Made by a program: the position numbers and the translations under genes
Assembly (NCBI RefSeq): GCF_002156705.1
Contig: NZ_CP019893.1
Coordinates: 1,860,001 to 1,924,000, forward strand
DNA from: Natrarchaeobaculum aegyptiacum
Lineage (GTDB): Archaea; Halobacteriota; Halobacteria; Halobacteriales; Natrialbaceae
Direction: 5' to 3'
DNA: 64,000 nucleotides
Part shown: positions 45,254-62,394 of the stretch, piece by piece
Position numbering within the stretch: position 1 is the stretch's first letter
How the letters are laid out: every line of letters begins with the position of its first letter
The notes under the pieces: generated by a model
What the model was told of the DNA's origin: nothing
The model's input: the letters and a program-made list of their open reading frames with translations, nothing else
The model's database searches: none

Positions 45254-46882
45254 CATCCGTTCTAGTTTAACAGGTCGGGGTATCCAGAGACGCCAAGCTA
45301 GAATCGTCAGTAACTAGGAATGTGAGAATCCGGTGGGAAGTGTGTACAAACCACCGGATTCAGTAGTTGTGAACCGAATTCAAAGAGCGTTTCCATCCGA
45401 TGAGTTGCGCGAGCGTGCTCGCGCAACGAATCTTATCCAGCGAGAGCGGAAACTCGACGTCGTCGCGTTGTTTTACACGCTCTCCCTCGGCTTTGCCGCT
45501 GGTTCTGATCGATCCATTCAGGCGTTTCTCGAACGCTACGTCGAGATGGCTGACTGCGACGAACTCTCGTATGCGACGTTTCACGGCTGGTTCAAACCAG
45601 GGTTCGTCGCACTCCTTCGAGAGATTCTCGATGAGGCCATCGAGAATCTCGACACCGGCCAAACCGAGCTGAGCGGACGTCTCGAACGATTTCGAGACGT
45701 CCTCATCGTCGACGCGACGATCATCTCGCTCTACCAAGACGCCAAAGATGTCTACGCACTCGATGATGACCGAGCCGGGGCGAAACTCCATCTCACCGAA
45801 TCGCTCTCAACGGGACTTCCAACGCGATTTCGGACGACCGACGCGAGCACCCATGAACGGAGCCAGCTACCCACCGGCGAGTGGGTAGCTGGCGCCCTCA
45901 TTCTGTTCGATCTCGGCTACTACGATTTCTGGCTGTTCGACCGCATTGACGCCAATGATGGCTGGTTCGTCTCTCGCGTCAAAGAAAACGCAGACTTCGA
46001 AATCGTCGAAGAACTCCGGACGTGGCGAGGGAACAGCATTCCGCTAGAAGGCCAGTCGCTGCAGGCCGTCCTCGACGACCTGAAGCGACAGGAAATTGAC
46101 GTACAGATCACGCTCTCGTTCGACCGCAAACGAGGGTCGGGCGCCAGCGCGACCCGAACCTTCCGATTAGTCGGCGTTCGCAACGATGACAGCGGCGAGT
46201 ATCATCTGTACCTGACGAATCTGGAGAGAGACGACTACCGCGCGCCCGATATCGCACAGCTCTATCGGGCGCGCTGGGAGATCGAACTGCTGTTCAAAGA
46301 ACTCAAATCACGGTTCGGTCTGGACGAGATCAACACGACCGACGCCTACATCATCGAGGCGCTGATCATCATGGCAGCACTCTCGCTGCTGATGAGCCGG
46401 GTTATCGTCGACGAACTCCAGAAACTGGACGCAAAGCAGCGAGACTGCGCCGACGACGCCGCGGCGTCGTCGACGCGGCTTCCTCGACGACGATGTTCAC
46501 ACGCTGTCGAACGCCACGCTCATCTGATCCAGTTGTACCTGATGTTGGATCTGGGGTACGAGCTACCGGATCTCGATTCGTTGTTGCTGTGGTCGTCACG
46601 AGATCCAAATCCACACCGTCCGAGGTTACGTGAACAGGTGGAGTCAGGCGAGTTCTGGTAACGAACTCGCCTGACGAGACGGGCTGGATCGCCCAGGCTG
46701 GTCAGCGACGGCTCTGGAACGGCGGCGCACTCACGACTGCGAGTGCGCCGCCTTCGACGGGAGACATGACCAAGAACCGGCTGGTTTGCTTGAGCAGCAG
46801 CTATCTCGGTATGATTGCGGTGAGACTCGACGCATTTTCGGCGTGATCACCGTCTCAGTTAGTCGCTAAGCTAGAACGGATG
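45254..46882 (+). mobile_element. IS4-type (ISH8-like) element, copy B
   Basis: 1,629 bp. Ends CATCCGTTCTAGTTTAA and TTAGCGACTAAC-side CTAGAACGGATG are inverted repeats over at least 12 bp. A strong hairpin (GGCGGCGCACTC/GAGTGCGCCGCC) lies near 46721-46752, after the transposase. The right flank ACCAACACCC (46883-46892) pairs as a target duplication with 24653-24662 at copy A, not with its own left flank. Confidence 0.95.
45333..46661 (+). CDS. IS4-family transposase (ISH8 group), copy B
   Basis: 442 residues, identical to the product of 23245-24573. Intact DDE/YREK motifs (YRARWEIELLFKELK), so probably an active source element. The inverted terminal repeat lies 79 bases before the start. 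Confidence 0.95.
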   Translation: MGSVYKPPDSVVVNRIQRAFPSDELRERARATNLIQRERKLDVVALFYTLSLGFAAGSDRSIQAFLERYVEMADCDELSYATFHGWFKPGFVALLREILDEAIENLDTGQTELSGRLERFRDVLIVDATIISLYQDAKDVYALDDDRAGAKLHLTESLSTGLPTRFRTTDASTHERSQLPTGEWVAGALILFDLGYYDFWLFDRIDANDGWFVSRVKENADFEIVEELRTWRGNSIPLEGQSLQAVLDDLKRQEIDVQITLSFDRKRGSGASATRTFRLVGVRNDDSGEYHLYLTNLERDDYRAPDIAQLYRARWEIELLFKELKSRFGLDEINTTDAYIIEALIIMAALSLLMSRVIVDELQKLDAKQRDCADDAAASSTRLPRRRCSHAVERHAHLIQLYLMLDLGYELPDLDSLLLWSSRDPNPHRPRLREQVESGEFW

Positions 46883-47396: not shown

Positions 47397-47497
47397 AGTC
47401 CAATGGCGGTAATTTTGGTGAAAGACAGAATATCTCCAATTCAAATAGATTTCTACTCTATATGGTAAATCAAATAACATCGATCAATTTCCCGGAA

Positions 47498-47506
47498 CCT
47501 TTAAGC
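47498..47506 (+). promoter_or_regulatory. Promoter of the defence-like cluster
   Basis: cctttaagc lies 24-32 bases before the ATG at 47530. Fits a TATA box for a leaderless or nearly leaderless first gene. Confidence 0.45.
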
Positions 47507-47529
47507 TAGTATCGATCTCGTTAAAGACT

Positions 47530-49392
47530 ATGTCCCAATTCTATCAGGATGCGACCCCTGATCAAGCTCAACTTTTACCCACGAAGGACACACTCACTGC
47601 GCTCAAGTCTGACGTAACGCTCGAATCAGCGATTCTGGAGCTGTGCGACAATTCACTTGATGCCTGGAAACGGTCCACTGATAGGACAACACCTACACAA
47701 ATCGAAATCGAGATTGAGGAGAATCAGAACAAGACGGAACTAATCATTCGTGACACTGCGGGTGGGATTCCCCGAGAGGATGCAGCGATGCTGTTTGGAC
47801 TTGGCAAGACGGCCAAGAACGAGGTCCCTGGTGCGATTGGTACGTTTGGAGTTGGTGCAAAGAAGAGTCTCGTGAATCTAGGCCTCCCATTCCAAATCAT
47901 CTCGCGAGATGAGTCTGCTGACACAGGTTGGACCTATCGTATCACAGAGGGCTGGTTCGATGACGACGAAGACTGGACAGTTCCAGTACACGATGCGGAC
48001 GATATCCCCCCGGGAACAACTGAGATCCACATTGAGGATCTCAATTACAACTGGACTGAGGAGACCGCCAATGGATTGAGGGACCGACTCGGAAGAGCGT
48101 ACAACCTATTCCTAAGCGAAGATATGCAGGAGCTCCGAGGTACGGACTACGAACTAGATATCATCGTCGACGGAACCCCCGTTGAACCTGAAGGGATTCC
48201 TGACTGGTCGTACCCTCCACTTGATGGACTCCATGCTCGTCGGTATGAGAATATCGAACTGGATCTTGAGGAATTCGACGAGACCGTTTACCTCCACATC
48301 ACAGTAGGCCTGCTGACTAAGAAAGATAATCAAAAGGCAGGCACAGATATTTACTGTCAGGAGCGGAAAGTCGCAGGCCGACTTCGTGATGACCAAGGTG
48401 GGTTCGGGACTGGGAAGAATAGACTTGGCAATTTCAACCCTCGTCATCAACGTCTGAAGGTAATCGTTGAACTAGAAACTGAGGGCGATGGCCAAGCACT
48501 CCCGTGGGACACACAGAAATCCTCAATCGACAGACACAACCCGCTGATGCGAGGGACCGACGACTGCCGTGGCGTATACAATTGGCTTCGGAGGACTGTC
48601 CAGGCATACTTCGACATGGATGCAGATCGAGTTCCGCGCGCCTTCTTCGAGCCATATGACGCAGATCATCCCGCAGCAGCTAACGGAGGAAAGCCAGAAG
48701 TCCACGACTATTCCGGTCGGGCGCATGTAACAAAGGAACACCGCCCAGACACAGATATCCCCCAGGTCAAACTGGTAATGCAAAAGGCACAGTCAGATGC
48801 TATTTTGCGAATCTCTCGTGAAAATGTTATAGAGGACGGCCTGGTTGATGCATACAAAATTCAGCTTGAGCACGAGAGTGACCGAAACCGAGAGAATTTG
48901 ACCCAGATCACCTCGGAACCACCAGAAGAAGCGGTCAAAAGGACACACGAAATAGCAGGCCAAATTGGTGAGCTGGCGCGGCGCCATTATGATAAAGGCG
49001 TTTATTATCCTGATGAGTTGGAAGATTGGGAGGCTGCCCGTTATAATTCCTTCATGGAGCGACACGGGAAACAGGACTTGAGAGTGGTTGATGAACTTTC
49101 AGGAGTTCTCCCAGCCTCCCGGGAAGAATTGTCTTTATCAGACGGGAGTCAGGCTACAACTGAACATAGTGCTGCTGTCTATACGGGTAAGGAACTTGAG
49201 GACGACTCAAAAACAAGTGAGGACGCTGAGCTCTTCCTCGTGTTAGGTGGCGAAGGCGAAGATGAACGAGGGTCGAAAGTAATGGACACCACCCGTCGCG
49301 AGCTAATCGGACAACTCAATATTGACCAGTCGGCGTCTGACGAAGTTCTCTGGGAAGAAGTGAAACACCGACTCGAGGATGCGCTGAACTGA
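47530..49392 (+). CDS. GHKL-type ATPase (MORC/HATPase_c_3-like), first gene of defence-like cluster
   Basis: 620 residues. The Bergerat ATP fold is complete: N box ILELCDNSLDAW (E37, D40, N41), G1 box RDTAGGIP (D75), G2-type loop GAIGTFGVGAKKS (101-113). The following transducer-like region (TTEIHIEDLNYNW) and the C-terminal half are unassigned; the C-terminus is acidic (LVLGGEGEDERGSKV). Such ATPases clamp or remodel DNA (MORC, Hsp90/MutL fold) and occur in several antiphage systems. AT-richer than the chromosome. No nuclease domain recognised. It precedes the methyltransferase by 45 bases. Confidence 0.8.
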   Translation: MSQFYQDATPDQAQLLPTKDTLTALKSDVTLESAILELCDNSLDAWKRSTDRTTPTQIEIEIEENQNKTELIIRDTAGGIPREDAAMLFGLGKTAKNEVPGAIGTFGVGAKKSLVNLGLPFQIISRDESADTGWTYRITEGWFDDDEDWTVPVHDADDIPPGTTEIHIEDLNYNWTEETANGLRDRLGRAYNLFLSEDMQELRGTDYELDIIVDGTPVEPEGIPDWSYPPLDGLHARRYENIELDLEEFDETVYLHITVGLLTKKDNQKAGTDIYCQERKVAGRLRDDQGGFGTGKNRLGNFNPRHQRLKVIVELETEGDGQALPWDTQKSSIDRHNPLMRGTDDCRGVYNWLRRTVQAYFDMDADRVPRAFFEPYDADHPAAANGGKPEVHDYSGRAHVTKEHRPDTDIPQVKLVMQKAQSDAILRISRENVIEDGLVDAYKIQLEHESDRNRENLTQITSEPPEEAVKRTHEIAGQIGELARRHYDKGVYYPDELEDWEAARYNSFMERHGKQDLRVVDELSGVLPASREELSLSDGSQATTEHSAAVYTGKELEDDSKTSEDAELFLVLGGEGEDERGSKVMDTTRRELIGQLNIDQSASDEVLWEEVKHRLEDALN

Positions 49393-49437
49393 ATACCGGG
49401 CAACTTTAGAGATGCCGCCTTCATGTGAATAACAGGA

Positions 49438-50346
49438 ATGGCAGACCCGATTTTGCGTTGGGCTGGCGGGAAGCGCCAGATTATCGACGACATCGTTACT
49501 AGGTTGCCCCCCGAAAGAGATTACAACGACTATTACGAGCCGTTCTTTGGAGGCGGTGCTGTCTTCTTTGAATTGGAGCCCGACAACGGGTACATCAACG
49601 ACATTAATGAGACTCTAATGAATTTTTACGAGTTGTTCAAGGACAATATAGATCACATAATCAGGGAAAATAAGAAGATAGACGACGACCTCAATCGTTA
49701 CAATACACTTGACGAAAAGAAAGAGTTCTATTATACCCGGAGAAGGGAGTTCAACGAGTTGCAAAACGGATGTTGTGAGGATGAGTTGCGGGAAGCAGTT
49801 CTCTTTCTATTCCTGAATCGAACTTGCTTCAATGGTCTCTATCGTACCAACGAGAAAGGTGATTTCAATGTCCCGATGAAAAAGAAGGTGATTATGACCG
49901 AATCAATTGAGGATAATCTAAAAAAAGGTCATAAAGTATTACAGAGTGCAAAAATACACTCTCGAGATTTCAAATATATCCGAGATGAAGTTCAAGGCGG
50001 TGATCTCGTATTTTTGGATCCGCCTTATATTAATAACTCCGATGCGAGATACTTCGATCAGTATAGTCCAGGTGGATTCGATAGAGATCAGCAGGTTAAA
50101 CTCCGAGACATTGCTCTAGAACTACACCATCGAGGTGCGTATGTGATGATCACGAACTCTGCTCAAGCTGAAGACCTGTATAGGAGTGACGATAACTTCA
50201 TGGAACACTTCAGAATTAAGCCAGTCGAAGCTGCTCGCTCGATCAACAGTGACTCATCTCAGCGGTCGCAGATTGGAACTACTGATATTATTGTCACTAA
50301 TTCGCCACAGTTCTGGGAACAGAGAAATTTTGACGATTACCGATGA
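49438..50346 (+). CDS. Dam-type (D12 class) DNA adenine N6-methyltransferase
   Basis: 302 residues, full length for the family. N-terminal RWAGGKRQI (7-15), SAM-binding motif YYEPFFGGGAVFFE (32-45), and catalytic DPPY at 194-197 (VFLDPPYINNS), with a helical target-recognition insert between. The family methylates adenine, most often in GATC, though relatives differ, so the target is not predictable here. A 45-bp gap with actttaga could hold its own weak promoter. In this context it is the candidate modification (self-marking) enzyme of the cluster. Confidence 0.9.
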   Translation: MADPILRWAGGKRQIIDDIVTRLPPERDYNDYYEPFFGGGAVFFELEPDNGYINDINETLMNFYELFKDNIDHIIRENKKIDDDLNRYNTLDEKKEFYYTRRREFNELQNGCCEDELREAVLFLFLNRTCFNGLYRTNEKGDFNVPMKKKVIMTESIEDNLKKGHKVLQSAKIHSRDFKYIRDEVQGGDLVFLDPPYINNSDARYFDQYSPGGFDRDQQVKLRDIALELHHRGAYVMITNSAQAEDLYRSDDNFMEHFRIKPVEAARSINSDSSQRSQIGTTDIIVTNSPQFWEQRNFDDYR

Positions 50347-50447
50347 TAGGTGCATAATCTATGGCCCGTGACAGCCGTCATTGACTTATATGACACTTAG
50401 GTTTGCAGGGTTGAACTACAATTAAATTCGAGGTGCAGTTGTGTCGT

Positions 50448-50477
50448 AGGGATATCCCTTAGCAAAGATTTATCTTA
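50448..50477 (+). promoter_or_regulatory. Palindrome plus TATA box before the F-like gene
   Basis: A perfect 12-bp palindrome AGGGATATCCCT (50448-50459) stands eight bases before atttatctta (50468-50477), itself about 34 bases before the ATG at 50511, in a 164-bp gap. The three downstream genes can therefore be transcribed separately from the ATPase and methyltransferase, with a possible operator at the BRE position. Confidence 0.5.
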
Positions 50478-50510
50478 TACTACTCAAACATATCAGGCGA
50501 CACGACGCCA

Positions 50511-52232
50511 ATGCCACTAACAAAATCAAGTGATTCTCTTTACGACTTGTTGTATGCCTGTCAACGTGGACAGCGAGTGGCAATCGTTGGAAGCCATACA
50601 GACGAAGACACCCTCCGTGAGGGGTTGTATGTACAACAAGATCAGGATGAACGTATTGCCGATTTTTTTGAGAAAGAGTACGACGACGATGGGCGACTGA
50701 TGATACTGACCGGAAGTGCTGGTGATGGCAAGAGTGCTTTGATAGCCCGTGGCTATGAGAAGGCCAAAGAGAAAATCCCTGAAGAGCGCGTGAAGATGGA
50801 CGCGACAGAGGCACGACGACGGGATGAAAATTATTCTGACCGCCTCACCTCTTTTTTCGAAAAAATTGAACCTGACGTTCAGTCTGAGTCTGGCCCACGA
50901 AGTGCGATTGCTATCAACTATGGTCTTGCCATCGACTATTTTCAGCGGAAAGGGATGGCAGACACCTTTGATGGGATCTGGAGTGCAATCGACGAATCAC
51001 AGAATGAACTCTTCCACCAGTCGGACGAGCACAATATTTCTGTACTCAATCTAAGTCACCGCGAGACATACGTGACTGATCCTGACTCATTGGGCGAAGG
51101 GTTAGTTTATGACCTGATTGATCGCTTTGACCCAACGAACGAAAATAGTCCGTTCGCAGAGGCGTACGAAAGGGAAAAGTCAGAGTGTCCCGCCGGGGAT
51201 AACTGCCCACTTCAATACAATATCCGCCAACTTACGAGCACATCAGTCAAACGGCAACTTGCGCGGTTATTTGCAGGATGGAGTGTGGTCACTGGTTCGT
51301 ATCTGAATCCACGGACCATAATTGACAATATTGCCTCGCTCCTACTCCCCAAATCGCAGCCTCACGATCAAGACCATGAGGTCTGTCCCATCGGTGCTGC
51401 AATCGAGAATGGTACCACAACTGCACACCCAGAGGACCTCATATGGAACGCAACTTTCCGTACATTGGGGACAAATAACCGGACTGAAGCAAGTAAAATC
51501 GATCCTGCAAGTCATACAACATTCGCAATTGACCAACAAGCGTTGGAGTGGGCAACTGAGGCTAACGGGACCGAAGAAAAACTGCCTTCGCTTCCAGCCG
51601 TTGAATTCGACGGATCGGTCGAACGCGTCCGTACAGTCTTGCGAAAGCAATACCTGAACAGTGGCGATGGGGAAACCATCATTGATAACCCAACATTCAA
51701 AGAGTTTGCCGCCGCACTGACGTTCTTCAACAATGATCAGCCGCAAAAACACGTTCGTCGGACACAGGAGTTGCTCAGCACTGTGCAAAAGGCTTTGGGT
51801 GGCTGGACTGGCCGGCAAAGAGACGATGGCCTGGTTGAGTTCATTGACGCAAAACGGTCCGCGTCATATCGATACCTCTCGGACTGGGAACAGCCTGAGT
51901 TTGATGCTGAAATGTGTGCAAAGGAAACCGAATCGCTAGCCGTTCCTGGACGTCTCAAACTAATGGCCAAGCCGTCGAGCAGCGAAGAGTCACTTATTCC
52001 GATCCCGATCTCGTTCAATATCTATCAATTATTGACACAAGTAAGCGAGGGGTATACTCCCAATGCAACAGACCTCAATCAGTCGCACGCTATCAGGGTA
52101 CTCCACTCACGCTTGGAAGACTTCACGAACAAGCGAGAAAATGTGGTCATTGAAGGCCGATCAAATAAAACGAAAGTGATTATCGAAGACGACAACCTCG
52201 CTTTGCGAATATCTCGAGAGGTCAGCAAATGA
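50511..52232 (+). CDS. DptF/DndF-like P-loop ATPase
   Basis: 573 residues. Walker A LTGSAGDGKSAL (67-77) follows an N-terminal helical part, as in DptF (DndF), an ATPase of phosphorothioation-dependent restriction. The rest is helical. A cysteine pair (SECPAGDNCP) is near 225. Placement directly before the G- and H-like genes supports the assignment more than any motif does. Stop overlaps the next ATG (ATGA). Expected to act in a complex with the H-like translocase on unmodified DNA. Confidence 0.65.
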   Translation: MPLTKSSDSLYDLLYACQRGQRVAIVGSHTDEDTLREGLYVQQDQDERIADFFEKEYDDDGRLMILTGSAGDGKSALIARGYEKAKEKIPEERVKMDATEARRRDENYSDRLTSFFEKIEPDVQSESGPRSAIAINYGLAIDYFQRKGMADTFDGIWSAIDESQNELFHQSDEHNISVLNLSHRETYVTDPDSLGEGLVYDLIDRFDPTNENSPFAEAYEREKSECPAGDNCPLQYNIRQLTSTSVKRQLARLFAGWSVVTGSYLNPRTIIDNIASLLLPKSQPHDQDHEVCPIGAAIENGTTTAHPEDLIWNATFRTLGTNNRTEASKIDPASHTTFAIDQQALEWATEANGTEEKLPSLPAVEFDGSVERVRTVLRKQYLNSGDGETIIDNPTFKEFAAALTFFNNDQPQKHVRRTQELLSTVQKALGGWTGRQRDDGLVEFIDAKRSASYRYLSDWEQPEFDAEMCAKETESLAVPGRLKLMAKPSSSEESLIPIPISFNIYQLLTQVSEGYTPNATDLNQSHAIRVLHSRLEDFTNKRENVVIEGRSNKTKVIIEDDNLALRISREVSK

Positions 52233-53683
52233 CATATCGCGGGTTTGGGTTCATCCCGGAATTCGATTCCGCACCTGGTCGGACAAATCAGCGTGCGTAC
52301 TTCCCGGTATCAATATCCGCGACAGTCCGAGAAGCAACATTCTCCGAGACGCTATCCGGAATCTTAGATGCCAATCCTAGCCACGACATTGCTGATTTGG
52401 AGCAGTCGTTCAAGGATCTACCAGAACTGGAGGGTGATGACGAGACAGCAGAGGAGTTGTGGACTGCCTTCATCTCTAGCTACGGTGTCTCAGCTGAAGG
52501 ATTTGGTCGAAAGAATGATGAAGCGGACTACCTAGTACCGTTCAATCACGCAGTGGCGTCAGCAATCAAGATCGACCAACGCCGCTGGTCACGCCTCTAT
52601 TGGCTATTGATGACCGACCCAGAGCATGGTGTCGCTGAAAATCTCCATTCAGAATTCGTCGATGCTCTCTTCGATATGGAGACATCAAATCTCCTGGAGG
52701 AGATTGTAATTAGCGGGATTGAGAATCTTGAGGGTGTTGAGCTGGCGTCAGATGCTACTGAAATTCTCTCCAATCAGACGCCAATTGAAATTGATCCGCT
52801 CGTTCCGGGGTGTGCGGAAGCATTTCGAGAAGATCTCAGAGCGTGGCTCAACGTCCGAGAATCTGAATCTGCCTCCCGGTGGATGCTTGGACTGCGGGAT
52901 ATCCTTAACTTCCATTATATGATGTACGTCATCCAAACCGCCTATACACTCCAAGAAGAATACAAGACGATCAAAGATGAGCAATCGTACGAGTACTCAT
53001 TTGACATCATTCCAGTGCCGTTTGGATTAGCGAGTGAAACTGCATCCAAATCTAGGGAGTTCGTGGATATCTGGAAAGGCGATGGTCTATCGAGAGCCCT
53101 GTACGACTCTTGGGGTCGGCTTGCGGTATTAAATCACGTTGTGAGCGTTGCGATGGAATCCAAAAATCAGATTGAGGCAAAGCCCTACACACTCTCAGGA
53201 GCACTTGAAGCATTCCCAGATGACCTCCAACAGGAAGTTATCGATCGGTTACTCGATGAGTTCCCCGATGAACAACGACCTGATGTCGACTCCGACCTCG
53301 GAGACGTAGCGATCAGATTTACACATTCAGTCCGACGATACTACGAAAATATGGGTAAAACACCGTCATCACAAACCGCCTATTCGGCAGGCGAGAATTC
53401 AGTTCGCGATCTTGGAACAGGTGCGGAACGACAATTTATAGAGCGACGTCGTGGCGTCGGGACGATTCTCCGTCTGGACAGAGGGAGCCTTCGGTTGTTT
53501 GCTCGACTCTTTGACGCGCGGAAGCAGCGGGGTCACATAGACGAATTCTGGGAGTATATGCGAGGGAGGGGAATTAGATTTGACCGCCGGTCAAAAGAGG
53601 AAGTCATCTCACAATTAGAGGCAATGGGACTGCTGCAGAAGCAAAGCGACAGTGGGGAGGCAATGTATGTCGAGACCCTTTGA
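52229..53683 (+). CDS. DptG/DndG-like protein
   Basis: 484 residues, no enzymatic motif. The C-terminal 90 residues (RRGVGTILRLDRGSLRLFARLF; RFDRRSKEEVISQLEAMGLL; QKQSDSGEAMYVE) resemble the winged-helix-like end of DptG as I remember the family, and length and gene order agree. The role in DptFGH is structural/accessory. Overlaps F by four bases and H by 17, so the three are one translational unit. The assignment is by context and impression and needs a profile search. Confidence 0.55.
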   Translation: MTYRGFGFIPEFDSAPGRTNQRAYFPVSISATVREATFSETLSGILDANPSHDIADLEQSFKDLPELEGDDETAEELWTAFISSYGVSAEGFGRKNDEADYLVPFNHAVASAIKIDQRRWSRLYWLLMTDPEHGVAENLHSEFVDALFDMETSNLLEEIVISGIENLEGVELASDATEILSNQTPIEIDPLVPGCAEAFREDLRAWLNVRESESASRWMLGLRDILNFHYMMYVIQTAYTLQEEYKTIKDEQSYEYSFDIIPVPFGLASETASKSREFVDIWKGDGLSRALYDSWGRLAVLNHVVSVAMESKNQIEAKPYTLSGALEAFPDDLQQEVIDRLLDEFPDEQRPDVDSDLGDVAIRFTHSVRRYYENMGKTPSSQTAYSAGENSVRDLGTGAERQFIERRRGVGTILRLDRGSLRLFARLFDARKQRGHIDEFWEYMRGRGIRFDRRSKEEVISQLEAMGLLQKQSDSGEAMYVETL

Positions 53684-56600
53684 GCAGAACGTCGCTCGGT
53701 GGTTCCATGAACAGATGCCGGAACTGGATCCTCAGCCTGGGGACCGGTATGCAGGGAAGCTACCAGACCCCGGGACGGCCGAGAAAATTACTGAATATAT
53801 CCTCGATAACTCCGGGGGGTCAGTTAGGTCTCAGACTGTCGAGTATGAGGGCGAACAACAGGAAGTTCCGGTGATTGATCTCGATGGAACGTCTGTGATC
53901 GTAGTTTCTGTCCGGAGAGAGGGCGATGCTGTGAGCCGTGACTTTGAGGTATCCCGATCGTACGCTACAACGTTACGGAACATTATCGCTGAGGGGGAAG
54001 ATGACCTCTCTGATAATGCGCTCGTCATGATTTATGAGTCCGGTGTGGCCATTGAAACGCTTGAGACCACTCACCTTCTCTTTGCACACGACGAACAACT
54101 ACCCCTAACTGACTTCCAAGAACGGATACTCGGAAGCAAAGAAAAGCTGCCTATCCCTGGACAGGCGCTTATCGAGATCGTTGAATCGCGAATTGACCTT
54201 CCGGATAACCCACTAGACAACCTGGATCCGCTCCGTACGTATTGTGATATCTACGATGCCTGTATGCGGTCCGATGGGGATGTAGTGCCCGGCCTCATTC
54301 CGAAAATTGGCACATACCTGACAGAGACTGCCTTTGATGACGAATGGTTTGACAAAACAAATAGCAAGTCTGAACTCCAAAGCCAGGCCGAACAGATCCT
54401 AGAACGTAATCAACAACATGCAGAGCGGATTGCGGACGCAAAGAGTGTTACAAAGGATGAGGAAACAGAACTGGGAGCATACTACACAGAGGAGTTTATC
54501 GAAAGTGTCGTCAGCAGATCAGACTGGGGAACGATAACTCGGTCTGACGCTGCTGAAGGAGAAGTCAGTACTATGGATAGTGGCAGTTCTACGGGGTCAG
54601 GCTCTGGAACCAGTGGTAAAACCATGAGTACCTCAGGTACGTCTAGAACTGCGGCAAGTCGAGATCCGAAATTCCAGGACATAAGCATCGAGCAAGACTT
54701 GGTCCGGATCTACGGAGCTGGAAGTCAGACGGAGGGTGACCGGAATGTCATCATCGGGATGACCAGTGGAAACCTCTCAGTAGCGATCGAGTATGATATC
54801 GATGTCTCAGGAGAGCCGGTGAAGCTAACTGATGGGGCTGGTAATGAGAAGGATGCCTGGGAAAAACAAAACAATGAGCTCAAGATCTCGTTGTCGGGAC
54901 TCGATCCAGATGTGCCCCAGTTCTACCGCCTTGAAGTGTATATCGGACACAAGACGAAGCGTGGAACGCCACAAAACCAATTCGATTTTGCACTCATCCC
55001 TGAGTCATTATTCAACACGTTACCGACTGGTGATAAGACGTTCGGTGTCGATGTTGGCGAGGAATCTCTAACAGCATTTGACGAGGAATTGATCGAGCTT
55101 ACACCGCCGGGAGCAGATGAGAGTAGTAACCCAGAAACGGTTGAAATCACTGAGAAGACCTATTATGAAGCAGATCAGCATGCCCTTCTCCGGCCCAAGC
55201 CACTCCCTGGAGACAGACAGGTCCGGTGTAAACTCACACTTCCATCAGGAACACCTGTACCACTTAATATTGACTTCATATCTGAGGTAGATGAGCCGAC
55301 AAAGGAAGAAGTCCAATTTCCGCTATCTTTCGCCGCACTGATGTCACCGACAGACTGGGCAGAGGATGATTCATTAGAAATCGATTCTGCAGTCGTCACC
55401 AACATTGACATTGGCGAATTCCACTCGCCGACCCGCGGCCGGATTGAAATCCCCGACCCTGATCGGAAACTGCTTGCTCTAGAACAGGGAATTGTGCAAG
55501 AAGGGACGATAGCTCCTCGTGAGACAGCACAAGTCGATGTTGGACTGGGAGTCGCTCCTGATGACGGGCTTGAGAATATCGCACCAGATCTCATCAGTGC
55601 ATATACGGCATTGCTTGAACACTTCGATCAACGTGATACTATACCGTCGACAGACATTTGGGACCAGGAAACGCAGGACTGCGTTGAAGCGGTTTTGGAG
55701 AATTATAGGAAAGCGATACAAGCGTTGGAGACGGGAAAAACCACTCCCCAATTCAATCCGTATCGGCGGCTCGGCACGATTCAGTCAACATCCGCGAATG
55801 TCGTTTGGTTGACCCCCTTCCATCCCCTGATGTTGGCATATGGGCTGCGGGTAACACGATGGCGGGATGAACTGTCGGAAGCTGGACTGACTGATGGATT
55901 TAGATTTAGCAGGTTTCGGTCGCTGTTCAACCCCGTTGGGTTCTCACCGTTCAGGTGGAGCCAAAGCGACGGTGGAAACATACTTTCAGGGCACACGATG
56001 GAAAACAACCACCTTTGGGCTTCTTATGCCCCTATCTCGGGCCCGGGATCAGACACTCCAAACTATATTGCTGATGTAATCTCGGATAAGTTGGAGGCAT
56101 TCGCCAGAGCGTTCCCACTCCTATTCAAACTGCATAAGGACCGAACTCTCCGCATTAATCTAGTGAATATGGGGGACCTAGGACCGGTAATTGAGGGGCT
56201 TTATGACTTCTTCAAATATGTCGACGACCATCCAGAGTTGAATCTCCCACAGGTCAATCTGCAAATCTACGGCGGTCCCAATGAAGGCCGGACGATCGAG
56301 CGGTTCTTTGCAACAGATAGTGGGGACTCGCCACTTCGAGAGCAGTTAGGGGGCTCGTCAGATACAGATGAGATCCTGGAAAAGTTAGACCGGCGTGTGA
56401 GCTATGTCCGGGCTGATTCTGAATTCAACGAGGACACTCAGCGATCCGCCCATCTTACGCTTTTCCGCGGCATTCTGGAAGAACAGCCAGGCGCTGTGAA
56501 AACTGAAAGCTTCCCCAGAGCAACACGGCTGAATGGTCTCCTGCCCAGAGACCAAATCCAAGTCGAGTCCGCAGGGAGTGAGATCGTTTCCCGCTCAGGC

Positions 56601-59378
56601 TCTGCATTCGATCCATCTGAGAGCGGAATTCTCAGTGAGATCGGTGCCGCTGTCAACACATTGGAAGCGAGTATGCGTGACAGTGAGTTCAACTACGGCC
56701 GGACACTCAGCAAAGTGGTCACGACTGGTGGGCGGGCAAACCTGCCGCACATATGGAACCAATCGCTGTGGGTCCTCCACGTCGAGCCAAAAGTGGATCT
56801 CAGCTTCTACATCAATTCTACTTCCCAGTCGTCGGACATCTCAGACGAGGCCTTGATGATCCACTACAGCGATCAATATGACGCCGCGTCTCCCGGATTC
56901 GATATTATCACAACGACGGACAAGCGAGATCCATATATCAAGACTCTGGAAAGAGAGTTAGGGGCAACTCCAGGTTTGGACGGATTGGACCCTGAATCTG
57001 TGCTCACGCGCTTAGTTGCTATAGACGGAGAATTGGCGTTAGATCTCCAAAGCGCAGAAAACAACACCGTCATGGAACTACTCGGTCTGGTTGGTGGACT
57101 GGCAGTCAGCGGAGAGTTGCTTGCGCGGGAATTACCTGAGTATGAGTGGATCCCAATTAGTTTAGACGAATTTGCTCGCCACGATCGCAAATATCGCGGC
57201 GGACAGGAAGGCCTGCTTCAGTACTTCGGTGAGGGAGCAGCGTCGGATGATTTGTGTTTCGTCGGAGTCCCGAAGGACGTGGAGTCCGGAGATCTCAACC
57301 TCTATCTTTGGATTGTCGAGACAAAAGGCGGAACATCGGGCATCTCGAAAGGAGTCGAGCAGGTCAAAGGGGCAAAAGAGAACCTCACAGAGCTGTTTGA
57401 CCCGGACGAGGATTATGCAGATACCGAGGTTCTCCGTAGTGAATTTGGCGATGTTATCCTGCAGATCGCGCGTAGACTGTATCACTACGGGGTGATGTCT
57501 GAAGCACAGCTACAGACAACCGAACAACATACAGAGTCCCTAGTCGACGGTGAATACTCAATCAACCTGTTAGAGGATAGCCAACGAAGAATTGGAGAAG
57601 TTATTCGAATACAACGAGATATTGCGCTTCCCGACTTGCAGACTCAAGATGGTGTTCGCGTTCTCAAACTACCGGCCGACGTGCTATCACTGATCAATAG
57701 TAACAACCTTGGAGAGAATGAGATCCATCAGGACCTGAAAGCCGAGGAAGTCTCATTCGAAGCACCGGCAAATGCAGAAGAGACAGAGACGACTGTAGCC
57801 GAGGCCGCCACCTCCGAACAGACACAAACGGCTGAAGCCACGTCAGCAAGCGCTGAGGGGACAGAACCGACTGAAACCCCCTTTTCAGGCTCGGAAGAGA
57901 CAGAGGCAGAAACCTCTGAATCAGCAAGCTCGACAGACTCAGATGCTCAAACTGAGCAATCTGAAAACCAACCGGAACAAACAGAACATTCTGAGACAGC
58001 CAGCGGACAGGAATGTGATACTGACACTGCTGCGGCTGAGAAACAGAGCGAACAACAAGAGGAGGAAGGGGCAACTGATAGTACCGACACTGAAGAGGCT
58101 CCAGCATCCACCCAGAGTCAGAAGTCCGAAGGTGATGAGGAAGACTCTGACAGTGAAGTAGATGAGGACACAGCAGAAGTCTCGGGCACACAGGCGGCGG
58201 ACACACGCGGCACGAGGGCCTACTCATGGACATCGAGTGACAGACAGAAATTGATCGAGACATTGGACCCGAGTCCTGAACAAGAATTATCTCTAGACGT
58301 AACACGGCTCACGACCGACCTAAAGGAGCAATTCGAATCGTTAGGGATCAATATCTACGAACCGAACCCTGCCGATGTGTCAGTCGGTCCACGGAAAATC
58401 AGCGTGAATATTCGACCGAAATCGGGGCAGAAAGTTGACAGTATACTTAATGTTCTGAACTCGGTGAGTGTGCATATCCAAGCGTCAGGTTCCGTCACTG
58501 GTGTCGCCAACCCCGCGGAAGGGGCAATCCGGCTAGAAATCCCGCACGGAGAACCGCGAGACATCCACCTTCGTGAGGGGCTAGAGGCGTCGGCTGAGTC
58601 GTTTGATGAGCCGCTTCACATCCCACTTGGAGTGACCACAGAAAACGAACACAAAACGATCGATTTGCTTGAGGAACATCATGCACTGATTGGTGGTGCC
58701 ACAGGCTCTGGCAAGTCGAATTTCCTCGCATCTGTTATTTGCAGTCTCGCCGTCAATTACTCGCCCGACCAAGTCAAGATGAGTCTACTCGATCCCAAAG
58801 GAATTGACTTTGGCCGATTCGAGCCTCTACCACAGGTAGATACCTACTTAGACACTGGCGAACAGTGCGTTGAGTACTTAGAGGGCCTCCTTGAGTCCGA
58901 ATTAGAAGAACGTCGTGACCTACTGCAGGAAATGGGTGCGTCATCGGTACAAGAGTACAACCAGCTCGCAGAGACACACGATATCGCTCCGATTCCCTAT
59001 CGCGTCATCATCATCGACGAGTACGCTGACCTCATTATGGCTCTATCTGATAGCCAGCAGGAATTTGAAGATGCAGTGGGCCGGCTTGCGCAGATAGGAA
59101 GGGCTCTTGGCTACTCGATTTTGCTTGCGACTCAGCGACCCGACGCCAATATCGTGTCCGGCAATATTAAGACAAACTTCAACTGTCGGATTAGCTTTGA
59201 ACTCCCTTCAAACACTGACTCTCGGGTCATCCTTGATCAGCCGGGCGCAGAAGATCTGGAGGGTGCTGGAGACATGATTGCCCTGACGTCTGCCGGGGAG
59301 GAATATCACCTGCAGTCTTATCTACTTCGTCCCGAGGACGCTCTAGCTATTAGGGGGGAAATCACCGGCAATGATTAG
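53667..59378 (+). CDS. DptH/DndH-like giant FtsK-type translocase
   Basis: 1,903 residues from ATG 53667 (MSRPFEQNVARWF); an upstream ATG at 53652 is less likely. Residues 1-300 and 340-1360 are unassigned multi-domain sequence, including KGGTSGISKGVEQVKGAKENL. At about 1368-1518 is a low-complexity Glu/Thr/Ser/Gln linker. The C-terminal 270 residues are an FtsK/HerA-like motor: Walker A GGATGSGKS (1676-1684), Walker B VIIIDEYADL (D1784, E1785), sensor LLATQRPDANIVSG. DptH has the same architecture. Probably the DNA-translocating core of the restriction complex. Confidence 0.75.
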   Translation: MSRPFEQNVARWFHEQMPELDPQPGDRYAGKLPDPGTAEKITEYILDNSGGSVRSQTVEYEGEQQEVPVIDLDGTSVIVVSVRREGDAVSRDFEVSRSYATTLRNIIAEGEDDLSDNALVMIYESGVAIETLETTHLLFAHDEQLPLTDFQERILGSKEKLPIPGQALIEIVESRIDLPDNPLDNLDPLRTYCDIYDACMRSDGDVVPGLIPKIGTYLTETAFDDEWFDKTNSKSELQSQAEQILERNQQHAERIADAKSVTKDEETELGAYYTEEFIESVVSRSDWGTITRSDAAEGEVSTMDSGSSTGSGSGTSGKTMSTSGTSRTAASRDPKFQDISIEQDLVRIYGAGSQTEGDRNVIIGMTSGNLSVAIEYDIDVSGEPVKLTDGAGNEKDAWEKQNNELKISLSGLDPDVPQFYRLEVYIGHKTKRGTPQNQFDFALIPESLFNTLPTGDKTFGVDVGEESLTAFDEELIELTPPGADESSNPETVEITEKTYYEADQHALLRPKPLPGDRQVRCKLTLPSGTPVPLNIDFISEVDEPTKEEVQFPLSFAALMSPTDWAEDDSLEIDSAVVTNIDIGEFHSPTRGRIEIPDPDRKLLALEQGIVQEGTIAPRETAQVDVGLGVAPDDGLENIAPDLISAYTALLEHFDQRDTIPSTDIWDQETQDCVEAVLENYRKAIQALETGKTTPQFNPYRRLGTIQSTSANVVWLTPFHPLMLAYGLRVTRWRDELSEAGLTDGFRFSRFRSLFNPVGFSPFRWSQSDGGNILSGHTMENNHLWASYAPISGPGSDTPNYIADVISDKLEAFARAFPLLFKLHKDRTLRINLVNMGDLGPVIEGLYDFFKYVDDHPELNLPQVNLQIYGGPNEGRTIERFFATDSGDSPLREQLGGSSDTDEILEKLDRRVSYVRADSEFNEDTQRSAHLTLFRGILEEQPGAVKTESFPRATRLNGLLPRDQIQVESAGSEIVSRSGSAFDPSESGILSEIGAAVNTLEASMRDSEFNYGRTLSKVVTTGGRANLPHIWNQSLWVLHVEPKVDLSFYINSTSQSSDISDEALMIHYSDQYDAASPGFDIITTTDKRDPYIKTLERELGATPGLDGLDPESVLTRLVAIDGELALDLQSAENNTVMELLGLVGGLAVSGELLARELPEYEWIPISLDEFARHDRKYRGGQEGLLQYFGEGAASDDLCFVGVPKDVESGDLNLYLWIVETKGGTSGISKGVEQVKGAKENLTELFDPDEDYADTEVLRSEFGDVILQIARRLYHYGVMSEAQLQTTEQHTESLVDGEYSINLLEDSQRRIGEVIRIQRDIALPDLQTQDGVRVLKLPADVLSLINSNNLGENEIHQDLKAEEVSFEAPANAEETETTVAEAATSEQTQTAEATSASAEGTEPTETPFSGSEETEAETSESASSTDSDAQTEQSENQPEQTEHSETASGQECDTDTAAAEKQSEQQEEEGATDSTDTEEAPASTQSQKSEGDEEDSDSEVDEDTAEVSGTQAADTRGTRAYSWTSSDRQKLIETLDPSPEQELSLDVTRLTTDLKEQFESLGINIYEPNPADVSVGPRKISVNIRPKSGQKVDSILNVLNSVSVHIQASGSVTGVANPAEGAIRLEIPHGEPRDIHLREGLEASAESFDEPLHIPLGVTTENEHKTIDLLEEHHALIGGATGSGKSNFLASVICSLAVNYSPDQVKMSLLDPKGIDFGRFEPLPQVDTYLDTGEQCVEYLEGLLESELEERRDLLQEMGASSVQEYNQLAETHDIAPIPYRVIIIDEYADLIMALSDSQQEFEDAVGRLAQIGRALGYSILLATQRPDANIVSGNIKTNFNCRISFELPSNTDSRVILDQPGAEDLEGAGDMIALTSAGEEYHLQSYLLRPEDALAIRGEITGND

Positions 59379-59473: not shown

Positions 59474-60487
59474 ATGATATGCAATGCTCGAGCGCTCGAG
59501 ACAGCCTATGTCCCCCAGGATCTCGAGCACCGGGATGGCCAGATCAGCCAGCTGGCCGCGGCACTGAAACCGATCACGGAGGGGCTCAGTGGTGAGCACT
59601 GTCTGATCTTCGGCCCGTCGGGATCGGGAAAGACGACGCTCGCGAAGTACGTGGTCAGGATGCTTCGCGAGGAGTCGTTCGGCGTCAGGCGGGCGTACTG
59701 GAACTGTATGTCGGGATCCTCGAAAACGGAGGTCCTCCACGGACTCGCCCAGGACTCCGAGGTCGGCCGGTATCTTTCGAAAGACGGCACTGCCGCAAGC
59801 ACGTTTATCGAGGAGTTCCGGTCGATCGACGACCACGTCGTCGCGATCATCGACGAGGTCGACGTCCTCGAGGACGAGACGCTGTTGCTCGGACTCGGGA
59901 ACCTGCCGAACGTGACGATCGTCGCGATCACGATCGACGAGGACGACTTCTTCGCGAACCATCGGCTCAACGGTCGGGTGAAATCCCGGTTTTCGAGTGC
60001 CGAAACCCTGCGGCTCCGGAAGTATACCACCGACCAATTGACCGACATCCTTCTTGCACGGATCAACGCTGGCCTGCGTCCGGGTGTGATCGACGAGACG
60101 GTCGTCGAGTACATCGCCGACTACGCCGCCGGTGACGCTCGCACGGCGATCAAGGTACTCAAGAAGGCCGTAATCCGGGTCGATCGCGAAGAGCGTTCGA
60201 GCGTCACGCTCGAGGACGTCGACGCGGTTCACGACGAGGCACTGGTCGATCTCCATCAGGAAGACGTCGAGTCGCTCGGGACCCACAAGCGGTTACTGTA
60301 CGACATCGTCGCCGAAGCTGGCGAAATCGGCGTCACTCAGCTCCATGCACGGTACGAGGAACGGGCACCGGACCCGAAGGCCAACCGGACCCGTCGACGG
60401 TATCTCTCGACGCTCGAGGGGAAGTACGGCCTGCTCGAGTCGACAGGGAGCGGGAAAGGGAAGATCTACACGATCCCTGACCCGTGA
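59474..60487 (+). CDS. Orc1/Cdc6-family replication initiator, short form
   Basis: 337 residues, shorter than chromosomal Orc1 (about 400). Walker A GPSGSGKT (47-54), Walker B VVAIIDEVD (D127, E128), arginine-rich lid (RVKSRFSSAETLRL), C-terminal winged helix (GEIGVTQLHARYEERAP; YLSTLEGKYGLLES). GC-rich like the core genome, unlike the upstream cluster. It may initiate replication of a plasmid-derived part of the island. Confidence 0.85.
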   Translation: MICNARALETAYVPQDLEHRDGQISQLAAALKPITEGLSGEHCLIFGPSGSGKTTLAKYVVRMLREESFGVRRAYWNCMSGSSKTEVLHGLAQDSEVGRYLSKDGTAASTFIEEFRSIDDHVVAIIDEVDVLEDETLLLGLGNLPNVTIVAITIDEDDFFANHRLNGRVKSRFSSAETLRLRKYTTDQLTDILLARINAGLRPGVIDETVVEYIADYAAGDARTAIKVLKKAVIRVDREERSSVTLEDVDAVHDEALVDLHQEDVESLGTHKRLLYDIVAEAGEIGVTQLHARYEERAPDPKANRTRRRYLSTLEGKYGLLESTGSGKGKIYTIPDP

Positions 60488-60994: not shown

Positions 60995-62394
60995 AGTATC
61001 AGTACCTCACAAAGCGTCCCTGCCAGCTTGGACTGAAGCCGCAGTTTCATCCTGATCGGTAGTGATTGACGGGAGTTCTGACCGAAGATCGAGCAGAGTC
61101 GTCGCTGTCGGCGGCGGTCAGCCGCCGACGCGACGGCGTTGCCACTCGCAGGAAGGCTGACTTGGTCGGGCCTTAGCGGTGGAACCGATCGTCCGGTGGC
61201 CGATTTGCAGGGACGGCCCGACGCACCGCGAGGGCCGTCCATGTTGCCCGGCACAGCATCTTGATGAACTCCTTGAACGACCAGGACCAGAGGCGACGCC
61301 CGCCACGGCGGGGCGTCGCCACGTACTCCCAGTGCAAGTACCGCCAGACGTTCTGTAACAGCAAGCTCACCACAACGTACAGCAGCCGTACTACCGGGTT
61401 TTGTGTCGTCGTTGTTGCAATACTTTGCTCGGAGAGCCGGTACGTCGCCTCGATACCGAAGCGTTTCGCGTAATGGTATCGAGCGTCTCGTGGTGAGTTG
61501 ATGAAAGGCGCGTCAGCGGCGTAGCCGTGACGCGCCACCCCGTGTTCGTCGTATCGCCCGTTTTGGTAGGTGCAGTCGATGTAGACGGGAAACTCGACGG
61601 TCCAGCTGTGACCGTCGAGTTTCGCCGTCAGATCGTGCTGGATGACGCGGCTCCAACCTTCCGAGAGTTCCTGCTTGATCGTCTGTCCCCAGCGGATGAT
61701 CGGCATCACATAGGCGTGGTTGTGCGCCTGAAGCAGCGTGAGACACTTGCTATCGTAGAATTCACGGTCAAGATAGACGGCCTTGACGCTGAGGTCAAGG
61801 CCGTCGAGAATACCGAGAAACTCGGCGAGGACGCTGCTGGCGGTGTCGCCGTCGGTGAGACGGCGCACCGCCAGCGTATAGCGCTTGTTCTGTACACGCG
61901 CGTAGAGTGTAGCATAGGCGTGGAATGCGGTAGTTCCACGTTTCGCTTCCGAATGATAGAGGCCGTCTGTGTCGTCTTCGTCACCGTAGTAGGGCCGCAG
62001 GTGGAGGTCTGCGCAGACCTCCACCTGCTCAGGAAGCACAGTGAGTACGTCCTTCTGGAGAAGCGTGTTCCCAACTTGTTCAACCGATTCGAGGTCGAAT
62101 TTCTCGCGGAGATGGTACAGAACGGTGTTTTGGTGAGGAGAGTCTTCACTGTCCTCGCAGAGTGTCGAGACCGAGGTCCCGTCGGCGCACGCGCCGACGA
62201 GGACCTCATAGATGTCTTCAGCATCGATTTGAGCATTATCGCTCAGACCGAGAGAAACTTCCTCGTCAATCGTGTTGACGAGGAAGTTAAGGAGCTGGTC
62301 CTCGTGGATTGAACCGTCTGCTTGCTGTGGGTTCTTAGGCACAACTTCAGCAAGCAGACGTCTCAACTAACCAGCTTTGTGAAGTACTGAGTAT
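60995..62394 (-). mobile_element. ISH3-family insertion sequence with 5-bp duplications
   Basis: IS body 61000-62389 (1,390 bp). Ends CAGTACCTCACAAAGC (left) and CTTTGTGAAGTACTG (right) are inverted repeats with one mismatch. Both are flanked by AGTAT (60995-60999 and 62390-62394), the 5-bp duplication typical of ISH3-like elements. It interrupts the gene at 62390-62917 near its 3' end. Confidence 0.92.
61173..62366 (-). CDS. ISH3-family transposase
   Basis: 397 residues. DDE catalytic residues are probably in EVCADLHLRPYYG (first D), KAVYLDREFYD (second D) and the KRFGIEATYRL helix (E). The C-terminus is basic (WTALAVRRAVPANRPP). Intact, so the element may be mobile. Confidence 0.93.
   Translation of the reverse strand: MRRLLAEVVPKNPQQADGSIHEDQLLNFLVNTIDEEVSLGLSDNAQIDAEDIYEVLVGACADGTSVSTLCEDSEDSPHQNTVLYHLREKFDLESVEQVGNTLLQKDVLTVLPEQVEVCADLHLRPYYGDEDDTDGLYHSEAKRGTTAFHAYATLYARVQNKRYTLAVRRLTDGDTASSVLAEFLGILDGLDLSVKAVYLDREFYDSKCLTLLQAHNHAYVMPIIRWGQTIKQELSEGWSRVIQHDLTAKLDGHSWTVEFPVYIDCTYQNGRYDEHGVARHGYAADAPFINSPRDARYHYAKRFGIEATYRLSEQSIATTTTQNPVVRLLYVVVSLLLQNVWRYLHWEYVATPRRGGRRLWSWSFKEFIKMLCRATWTALAVRRAVPANRPPDDRFHR

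Follow-up and report, generated by a model that had tools for sequence, protein, structure and literature searches.

The five-gene locus and its genomic setting

Five genes lie on the forward strand at positions 47530-59378 of the DNA analysed here, a window of 64,000 nucleotides from the chromosome of Natrarchaeobaculum aegyptiacum. They encode a GHKL ATPase (47530-49392, 620 aa), a Dam methyltransferase (49438-50346, 302 aa) and three proteins referred to below as F, G and H: DptF/DndF (50511-52232, 573 aa), DptG/DndG (52229-53683, 484 aa) and a DptH/DndH-like protein (53667-59378, 1903 aa from its ATG, or 1908 aa from an alternative GTG start at 53652). F and G overlap by 4 bp, and G and H by 17 bp. 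All five same-strand reading frames of the original prediction, made from the sequence alone, were recovered at these positions. The host chromosome is haloarchaeal, 3.93 Mb in size, assembled as one contig and 99.84% complete.

The block has a GC content of 50.1%, against 60.5% for the remaining window, and a third-codon-position GC of 0.48-0.52, against values of mostly 0.6-0.9 in the neighbouring genes. Due to this lower GC, both overall and at third codon positions, the block stands out as foreign to its surroundings. Directly 3' of it, at 59474-60487, lies an Orc1/Cdc6-family gene (TIGR02928, 174 bits, slightly below the cut-off of 181) with high third-position GC, which falls outside the transferred unit. 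Transposase-like open reading frames, judged by eye from their translations, are located on either side of the block at 45333-46661 and 61173-62366, an arrangement that would be consistent with a mobile-element hotspot. The viral contigs searched held no relatives of the GHKL protein or of F, and hence gave no sign of a virus carrying the unit.

Transfer, selection and promoter-like stretches

The same five genes are found in G058, a genome of a different family within the same order, with 85% DNA identity over 11.9 kb. The match spans 47491-59366, its left end lying 39 bp upstream of the GHKL ATG, and across the 20 kb compared no similarity was detected beyond it, the flanks being unrelated. 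Since the identity is confined to this interval, the transferred unit comprises exactly these five genes. Between host and G058, dN/dS amounts to 0.05-0.09 for each gene, so all five have been kept functional under strong purifying selection. Taken together, the 85%-identical copy in another family and these low ratios indicate that the unit is not a product of chance.

The two halves of the unit have separate divergence histories. More specifically, dS between host and G058 is 1.28-1.31 for GHKL and Dam and 0.46-0.59 for F, G and H, and the differences at fourfold sites show a change-point near the Dam/F boundary (0.49 to the left vs 0.32 to the right; reached in 0 of 2000 permutations). The dS gap and the change-point together imply that the halves have been exchanged separately at least once.

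Each half is preceded by a promoter-like stretch that is conserved in G058. The first (47491-47529, forward strand) belongs to the GHKL-Dam unit and also forms the left edge of the transferred unit. It contains CCGGAAC-CTTTAAG and is TATA-like about 25-30 bp before the ATG; the DNA upstream of it is unrelated in G058, and the CCCGGAAC(C/T)TTTAA stretch is kept in that homologous locus, unlike the intergenic DNA around it. The second, GCAAAGATTTATCTTAT (50464-50482, forward strand), belongs to the FGH unit, where a TATA-like GCAAAG(A/G)TTTAT stretch 5' of F is kept amid otherwise diverged intergenic DNA. This conserved pattern supports one putative promoter per half, and with it the earlier suggestion that FGH may have a promoter of its own. 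Scans with sigma-70 and terminator models, which are not applicable to archaea, remained near chance level.

The difference in dS (1.3 vs 0.5) fits modularity, but it also fits mere neighbours. The main rival to the coupled unit that we propose below holds that two independent defence systems lie side by side, a methylation-sensing GHKL-D12 system and a stand-alone, mark-blind FGH, which share a defence island or a carrier. We regard this as rather unlikely. The unequal divergence of the halves and their separate promoter-like stretches speak for it, as does the published model of a stand-alone DndFGH that uses no modification (PMC10853773), but the five genes were co-transferred exactly, with nothing else.

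The GHKL ATPase and the Dam methyltransferase

The GHKL protein is matched by the Pfam model HATPase_c_3 with 47 bits. Its ATPase motifs, which had been read as complete, are borne out by comparison with 17 homologues, in which the N, G1 and G2 motif residues are invariant (E37, D40, N41, D75, G78, G79, G104, G107, G109 and K111); Lys330 is likewise invariant in all 17. An AlphaFold (AF2) model built with 17 sequences reached a mean pLDDT of 80.5 and a pTM of 0.73, and supersedes the fold search made with an earlier model from 7 sequences (pLDDT 50.8). The best PDB folds for the newer model are MORC2-DNA, MORC3, SMCHD1, Hsp90/TRAP1 and topoisomerase VI-B, with TM-scores that are modest throughout (0.33-0.53). 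On the strength of the predicted structure, it is justified to describe the N-terminal part as a MORC/Hsp90-like module, a label that stops short of any named MORC family, and the C-terminal part as a helical region.

These fold matches also bear on a regulatory reading, in which the GHKL protein controls the transcription or expression of adjacent immune genes, like the GHKL kinase CapK. Such a role would suit the position of GHKL-D12 pairs upstream of several different effectors (see below). However, the fold resembles MORC, Hsp90 and TopoVI modules, and no STAS substrate partner or HTH was seen, the invariant partner being a methylase instead; we therefore give this reading very little credence.

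The second gene encodes what is, judged by its sequence, a Dam-family (D12, N6-adenine) DNA methyltransferase. It scores 238 bits against TIGR00571 (cut-off 114.85), is the sole Dam above cut-off in the genome, and has intact FFGGG and DPPY motifs, confirming the complete D12 enzyme of the original prediction. The nearest solved structures are DpnM (2dpm, E=5e-44) and E. coli Dam (E=8e-27), both of them GATC enzymes, and the motif block LNR..NGLYR..FNVP is retained. The predicted methylation target is probably GATC or a close relative. GATC shows no depletion in the host genome (O/E 1.01), which is neutral if a protecting methylase is present and is uninformative on the target there. Across three Dam-FGH genomes, GATC stands at 0.94-1.01 of expectation, compared with 0.55 in G238 (120 kb), the genome with the fourth FGH locus described below.

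The F, G and H proteins and the search for sulphur modification genes

Profile searches bear out the identities of F, G and H as DptF, DptG and DptH. F scores 80.2 bits against the DptF profile TIGR03238 (curated cut-off 50) and, in alignment, shows a GSAGDGKS P-loop and the DndF-type Asn in its Walker B motif (LNLSH). G scores 65.4 bits against the DptG profile TIGR03236 (curated cut-off 20) and clusters in a tree with the G proteins of other FGH loci. H reaches 222 bits against the DptH equivalog TIGR03237, under the curated cut-off of 620.65, yet is matched by the wider PADLOC DndH models with E-values down to 3.7e-87; due to this combination, we classify H, by its sequence, as a divergent DptH/DndH.

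The layout of H consists of a DndH core, a PD-(D/E)XK nuclease, a low-complexity linker and a C-terminal FtsK/HerA motor, so that both the nuclease and the motor typical of DndFGH are present. The nuclease domain (residues ~1040-1350; 56784-57716, forward strand) contains D1194/D1195, E1218-x-K1220 and Q1232, and this SDD...ExK...Q pattern aligns with phosphorothioate-linked bacterial DptH, the Dam-linked DptH of Priestia megaterium, and MAD8 of the methylation-associated defense system (MADS). The FtsK/SpoIIIE translocase domain (residues 1647-1825; 58605-59141, forward strand; PF01580, FtsK_SpoIIIE, 112.8 bits) contains a GGATGSGKS Walker A, an IIIDEYADL Walker B and an ATQRP motif. Over the final 450 bp of H (58930-59378), 62% of fourfold sites are different in G058, compared with ~32% across the remaining FGH, which suggests that the end of the FtsK domain may have been locally exchanged.

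Trees of F and G, drawn from a small sample and with some long branches, separate the haloarchaeal proteins, as a supported clade (F 100/100, G 95/98), from a dnd-linked clade. The bacterial plasmid loci that combine FGH with dnd genes are those of P. megaterium Mes11, Massilia, Pseudoalteromonas and Aliivibrio. A Levilactobacillus plasmid has FGH with neither dnd nor Dam/AlwI genes annotated nearby, and its protein falls inside the dnd-linked clade. The plasmid of P. megaterium YC4-R4 (L098:9220-22703) carries Dam, an AlwI nuclease and DptFGH; its annotation shows no dnd genes near them, and it is an independent bacterial case of Dam-linked FGH. Its Dam-type methylase is 708 aa long and consists of two methylase-like halves, as judged by PADLOC matches.

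The original prediction saw no sulphur-modification gene at the locus, and this holds for the whole assembly. DndC (TIGR03183) is absent from the host and from seven related genomes tested, the host yielded no gene of DndC/SspD type, and the host proteins of the PAPS-reductase family (PF01507) are otherwise assigned, namely as CysH-like, CysD-like and NcsA. On these grounds, a dependence on phosphorothioates with dnd genes elsewhere in the genome was rejected. An orthodox phosphorothioate-dependent DptFGH could also draw on dnd/ssp genes located, for example, on an unassembled plasmid, with Dam being incidental; annotation pipelines do label the proteins 'phosphorothioation-dependent'. But DndC is missing from the near-complete single-contig host and from G058, G292 and G238, and the sampled dnd-linked F proteins form a clade apart from the haloarchaeal ones, leaving this explanation scarcely credible. 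With the 573-, 484- and 1,903-residue proteins related to DptFGH, dnd/ssp genes not found and the methyltransferase linkage conserved, the original prediction stands in all three respects.

Distribution and gene neighbourhoods

Homologues of the GHKL protein occur in 26 of 391 Halobacteria genomes. Among close relatives the pairing with Dam is obligate: Dam is adjacent in all seven homologues with at least 50% identity, and the GHKL and Dam distances correlate (Mantel r 0.94, 4 of 5040 permutations). In G300, G049 and G380, more distant GHKL proteins likewise have a D12 methylase as partner, and 7 of the 17 GHKL loci examined have no D12 gene in the DNA stretch inspected. Because GHKL tracks the methyltransferase and not FGH, it belongs to the modification/sensing half of the unit and is not an FGH-specific sensor.

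Intact DptF/FGH is found in 4 of 392 Halobacteriales genomes. A sample of 295 genomes across the phylum yielded no convincing DptF outside Halobacteria, and a scan of genome contigs returned only two loci. The FGH genes lie repeatedly next to base methylases. GHKL-Dam adjoins three of the four intact loci, those of the host, G058 and Natronorubrum aibiense (hypergeometric 1.4e-5, inflated by the kinship of two of them), and a base methyltransferase adjoins all four. Because the copies in the host and in G058 are recently related, only about two intact co-occurrences count as independent, with one degraded case in addition.

In N. aibiense, a Dam-GHKL-Dam array is divergent from dptFGH, and a Dam gene lies immediately 5' of dptF, in the place of dndB in P. 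megaterium Mes11. This agrees with the original prediction, which had placed an adenine methyltransferase in the position of the modification module. The fourth FGH locus, in G238 (L062:1675-12572), is bordered directly 3' of H by a C5-cytosine methylase and directly 5' of F by a MutH-fold gene; its H is without an FtsK domain. In Halorhabdus tiamatea pHTIA, fragments of F and H (65% and 61-80% identity, respectively) are located within 6 kb upstream of an intact GHKL-Dam pair, while PbeA/PbeC and an McrB-like gene lie on the opposite side of the pair. Within this debris (L071:12935-17756), the N-terminus of F sits beside C-terminal pieces of H, split by ISH transposases. A conserved Dam-GHKL-FGH linkage is seen in the host, G058 and N. 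aibiense, and as debris in H. tiamatea.

These neighbourhoods also bear on the reading as two independent systems. Four genomes (G143, G329, G078 and G199) have GHKL-Dam but no intact FGH, so the dependence is not mutual, and G238 has FGH without GHKL-Dam. Both observations favour independent neighbours, whereas the adjacency at three of the four intact FGH loci and the base methyltransferase beside all four argue against them and for the coupled unit.

GHKL-Dam was further found beside quite different defence modules. In Natronorubrum thiooxidans (L046:6946-17021), GHKL, Dam, McrB-like, McrC, PbeA and PbeC genes share one strand, McrBC and Pbe apparently being combined with an adenine methylase. 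A UvrD-PDDEXK protein converges on Dam in G143, and a PbeA-like helicase lies near GHKL-Dam in Halalkalirubrum salinum, where GHKL is at the contig end. G049 and G380 share a tight four-gene operon of D12 methylase, GHKL ATPase, PycC-like cyclase and PycTM effector, 69-85% identical between the two haloarchaeal genomes (L060:143-4723, reverse strand; L061:8411-13007, forward strand). This range of partners suggests that the GHKL-methylase pair is a swappable self/non-self module.

McrBC, which restricts modified DNA, adjoins GHKL-Dam in two genomes, and winged-helix m6A readers are known (PMC11037411), so that DndG-type winged-helix proteins could read m6A. Both points would suit a type IV-like, modification-dependent system, in which Dam or viral methylation marks the targets and GHKL-FGH attacks methylated DNA. 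However, an active-looking Dam within the unit would lay the host chromosome itself open to attack, and we consider this arrangement quite improbable.

A proposed mechanism

The reading that we favour, and hold to be reasonably probable, is that of a restriction-modification-like, mobile antiviral or anti-plasmid unit of two modules, in which Dam would mark self, FGH would restrict unmarked DNA, and GHKL would couple both. In the first module, Dam would write an N6-methyladenine self mark, and the GHKL protein, remaining with the methylase, would act as a dimerising, MORC-like ATPase clamp. The second module would be a Dnd-family nuclease-translocase complex of DndF, DndG and DndH, in which G and H may scan and recognise DNA, the FtsK motor would move it, and the H nuclease would nick or cut DNA without the mark. 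GHKL would most likely read the mark or the status of the methyltransferase, via DNA clamping or protein contact, and so license or activate whichever effector module is linked. This licensing role is strengthened by the recurrence of GHKL-D12 with Pycsar effectors elsewhere.

More tentatively, GHKL and the D12 methylase may form an undescribed, portable methylation-status sensor cassette, plugged into DndFGH here, McrBC-Pbe in N. thiooxidans, and a Pycsar cyclase with a membrane effector in two haloarchaea. If so, DNA-methylation surveillance would feed from upstream into DNA restriction as well as into cell suicide via cyclic nucleotides.

In annotation, DndFGH is treated as a bacterial sulphur-dependent nuclease. 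Its occurrence with base methylases and without sulphur genes, in the host and a few sampled loci, points to a general self/non-self nuclease that can use different marks.

Comparison with known systems

The unit shares with Dnd systems the homologous F, G and H of DndFGH/DptFGH, in the same order and with the same overlaps, together with the DndF P-loop features, the DndH nuclease site and the HerA/FtsK motor. It differs in that DndABCDE is absent and Dam with GHKL takes the place of partner, in that H falls below the DptH equivalog cut-off, and in that the haloarchaeal F and G form a separate clade. Archaea were said in 2019 to lack DndFGH (PMC6459918); in 2024 it was found there, decoupled from DndABCDE (Rakesh et al., PMC10853773). 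That stand-alone DndFGH likewise occurs in archaea without dnd genes, but no dedicated modification partner is proposed for it and the text makes no mention of GHKL or MORC, whereas the present unit has Dam and GHKL.

MORC-type ATPases in restriction-modification systems were predicted by Iyer et al. (2008, PMC2292703). In the portion of that work consulted, a GHKL ATPase module is likewise placed in restriction-modification gene neighbourhoods, with a proposed DNA-looping role. The MORC/paraMORC operons described there mostly contain SF2 helicases and cytosine methylases, and adenine methylases rarely, in contrast to the Dam of the host unit, and the same portion holds no mention of a pairing with FGH. 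The present unit offers a tractable archaeal case in which a prokaryotic MORC-like ATPase accompanies a methylase, as long predicted (PMC2292703).

PbeABCD/CxC ABC-ATPase systems (PMC6459918) are likewise haloarchaeal defence systems that can adjoin methylases, and they lie next to relatives of GHKL-Dam. However, the host unit contains neither an SF2 helicase like PbeA nor an SMC-like ATPase like PbeC. Identity with PbeABCD was rejected, as there is no PbeA or PbeC match among the five proteins; this settles the question of Pbe gene identity raised by the original prediction, PbeA-D being different proteins (PMC10853773, PMC6459918).

The nearest functional precedent is MADS (doi 10.1016/j.chom.2024.07.005, by Maestri et al. 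2024, as described in PMC11980395 and PMC12904381), a bacterial system based on an N6-methylase. Its loci in Bacteroides, Hymenobacter and Piscinibacter contain an N6-methylase with an FGH-like MAD6 C-terminus, MAD7 and MAD8. An N6-adenine methylase is thus combined with a DptF-like (kinase-fused MAD6), a DptG-like (MAD7) and a DptH-like protein (MAD8), with the nuclease motif in common. In contrast to the large N6-methylase, HsdS-like MAD5, MAD3 ATPase and kinases of MADS, the host unit has a small Dam and a GHKL ATPase, with no S subunit and no kinase. Membership in MADS was rejected on profile scores: all five proteins fall short of the MAD2, MAD5, MAD6, MAD7 and MAD8 equivalogs, only MAD7 being listed for them, at 22.7 vs 410 bits. 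The restriction mechanism of MADS was given as unknown in a 2026 review (PMC12904381), and the sequence evidence sets MADS beside Dnd.

The claim of an undescribed defence system stands for the Dam-GHKL-FGH combination, of which we found no description in the open-access literature searched, but is tempered by MADS and by the stand-alone archaeal DndFGH (PMC10853773). Similarly, the proposal that FGH has been re-paired with base methylation is supported by the FGH identities, the lack of sulphur genes, and the position and linkage of the methyltransferase, although MADS shows that such a pairing is not the first. As a whole, the locus is a real, selected and mobile five-gene unit, and a probable variant of methylation-coupled FGH-type defence.
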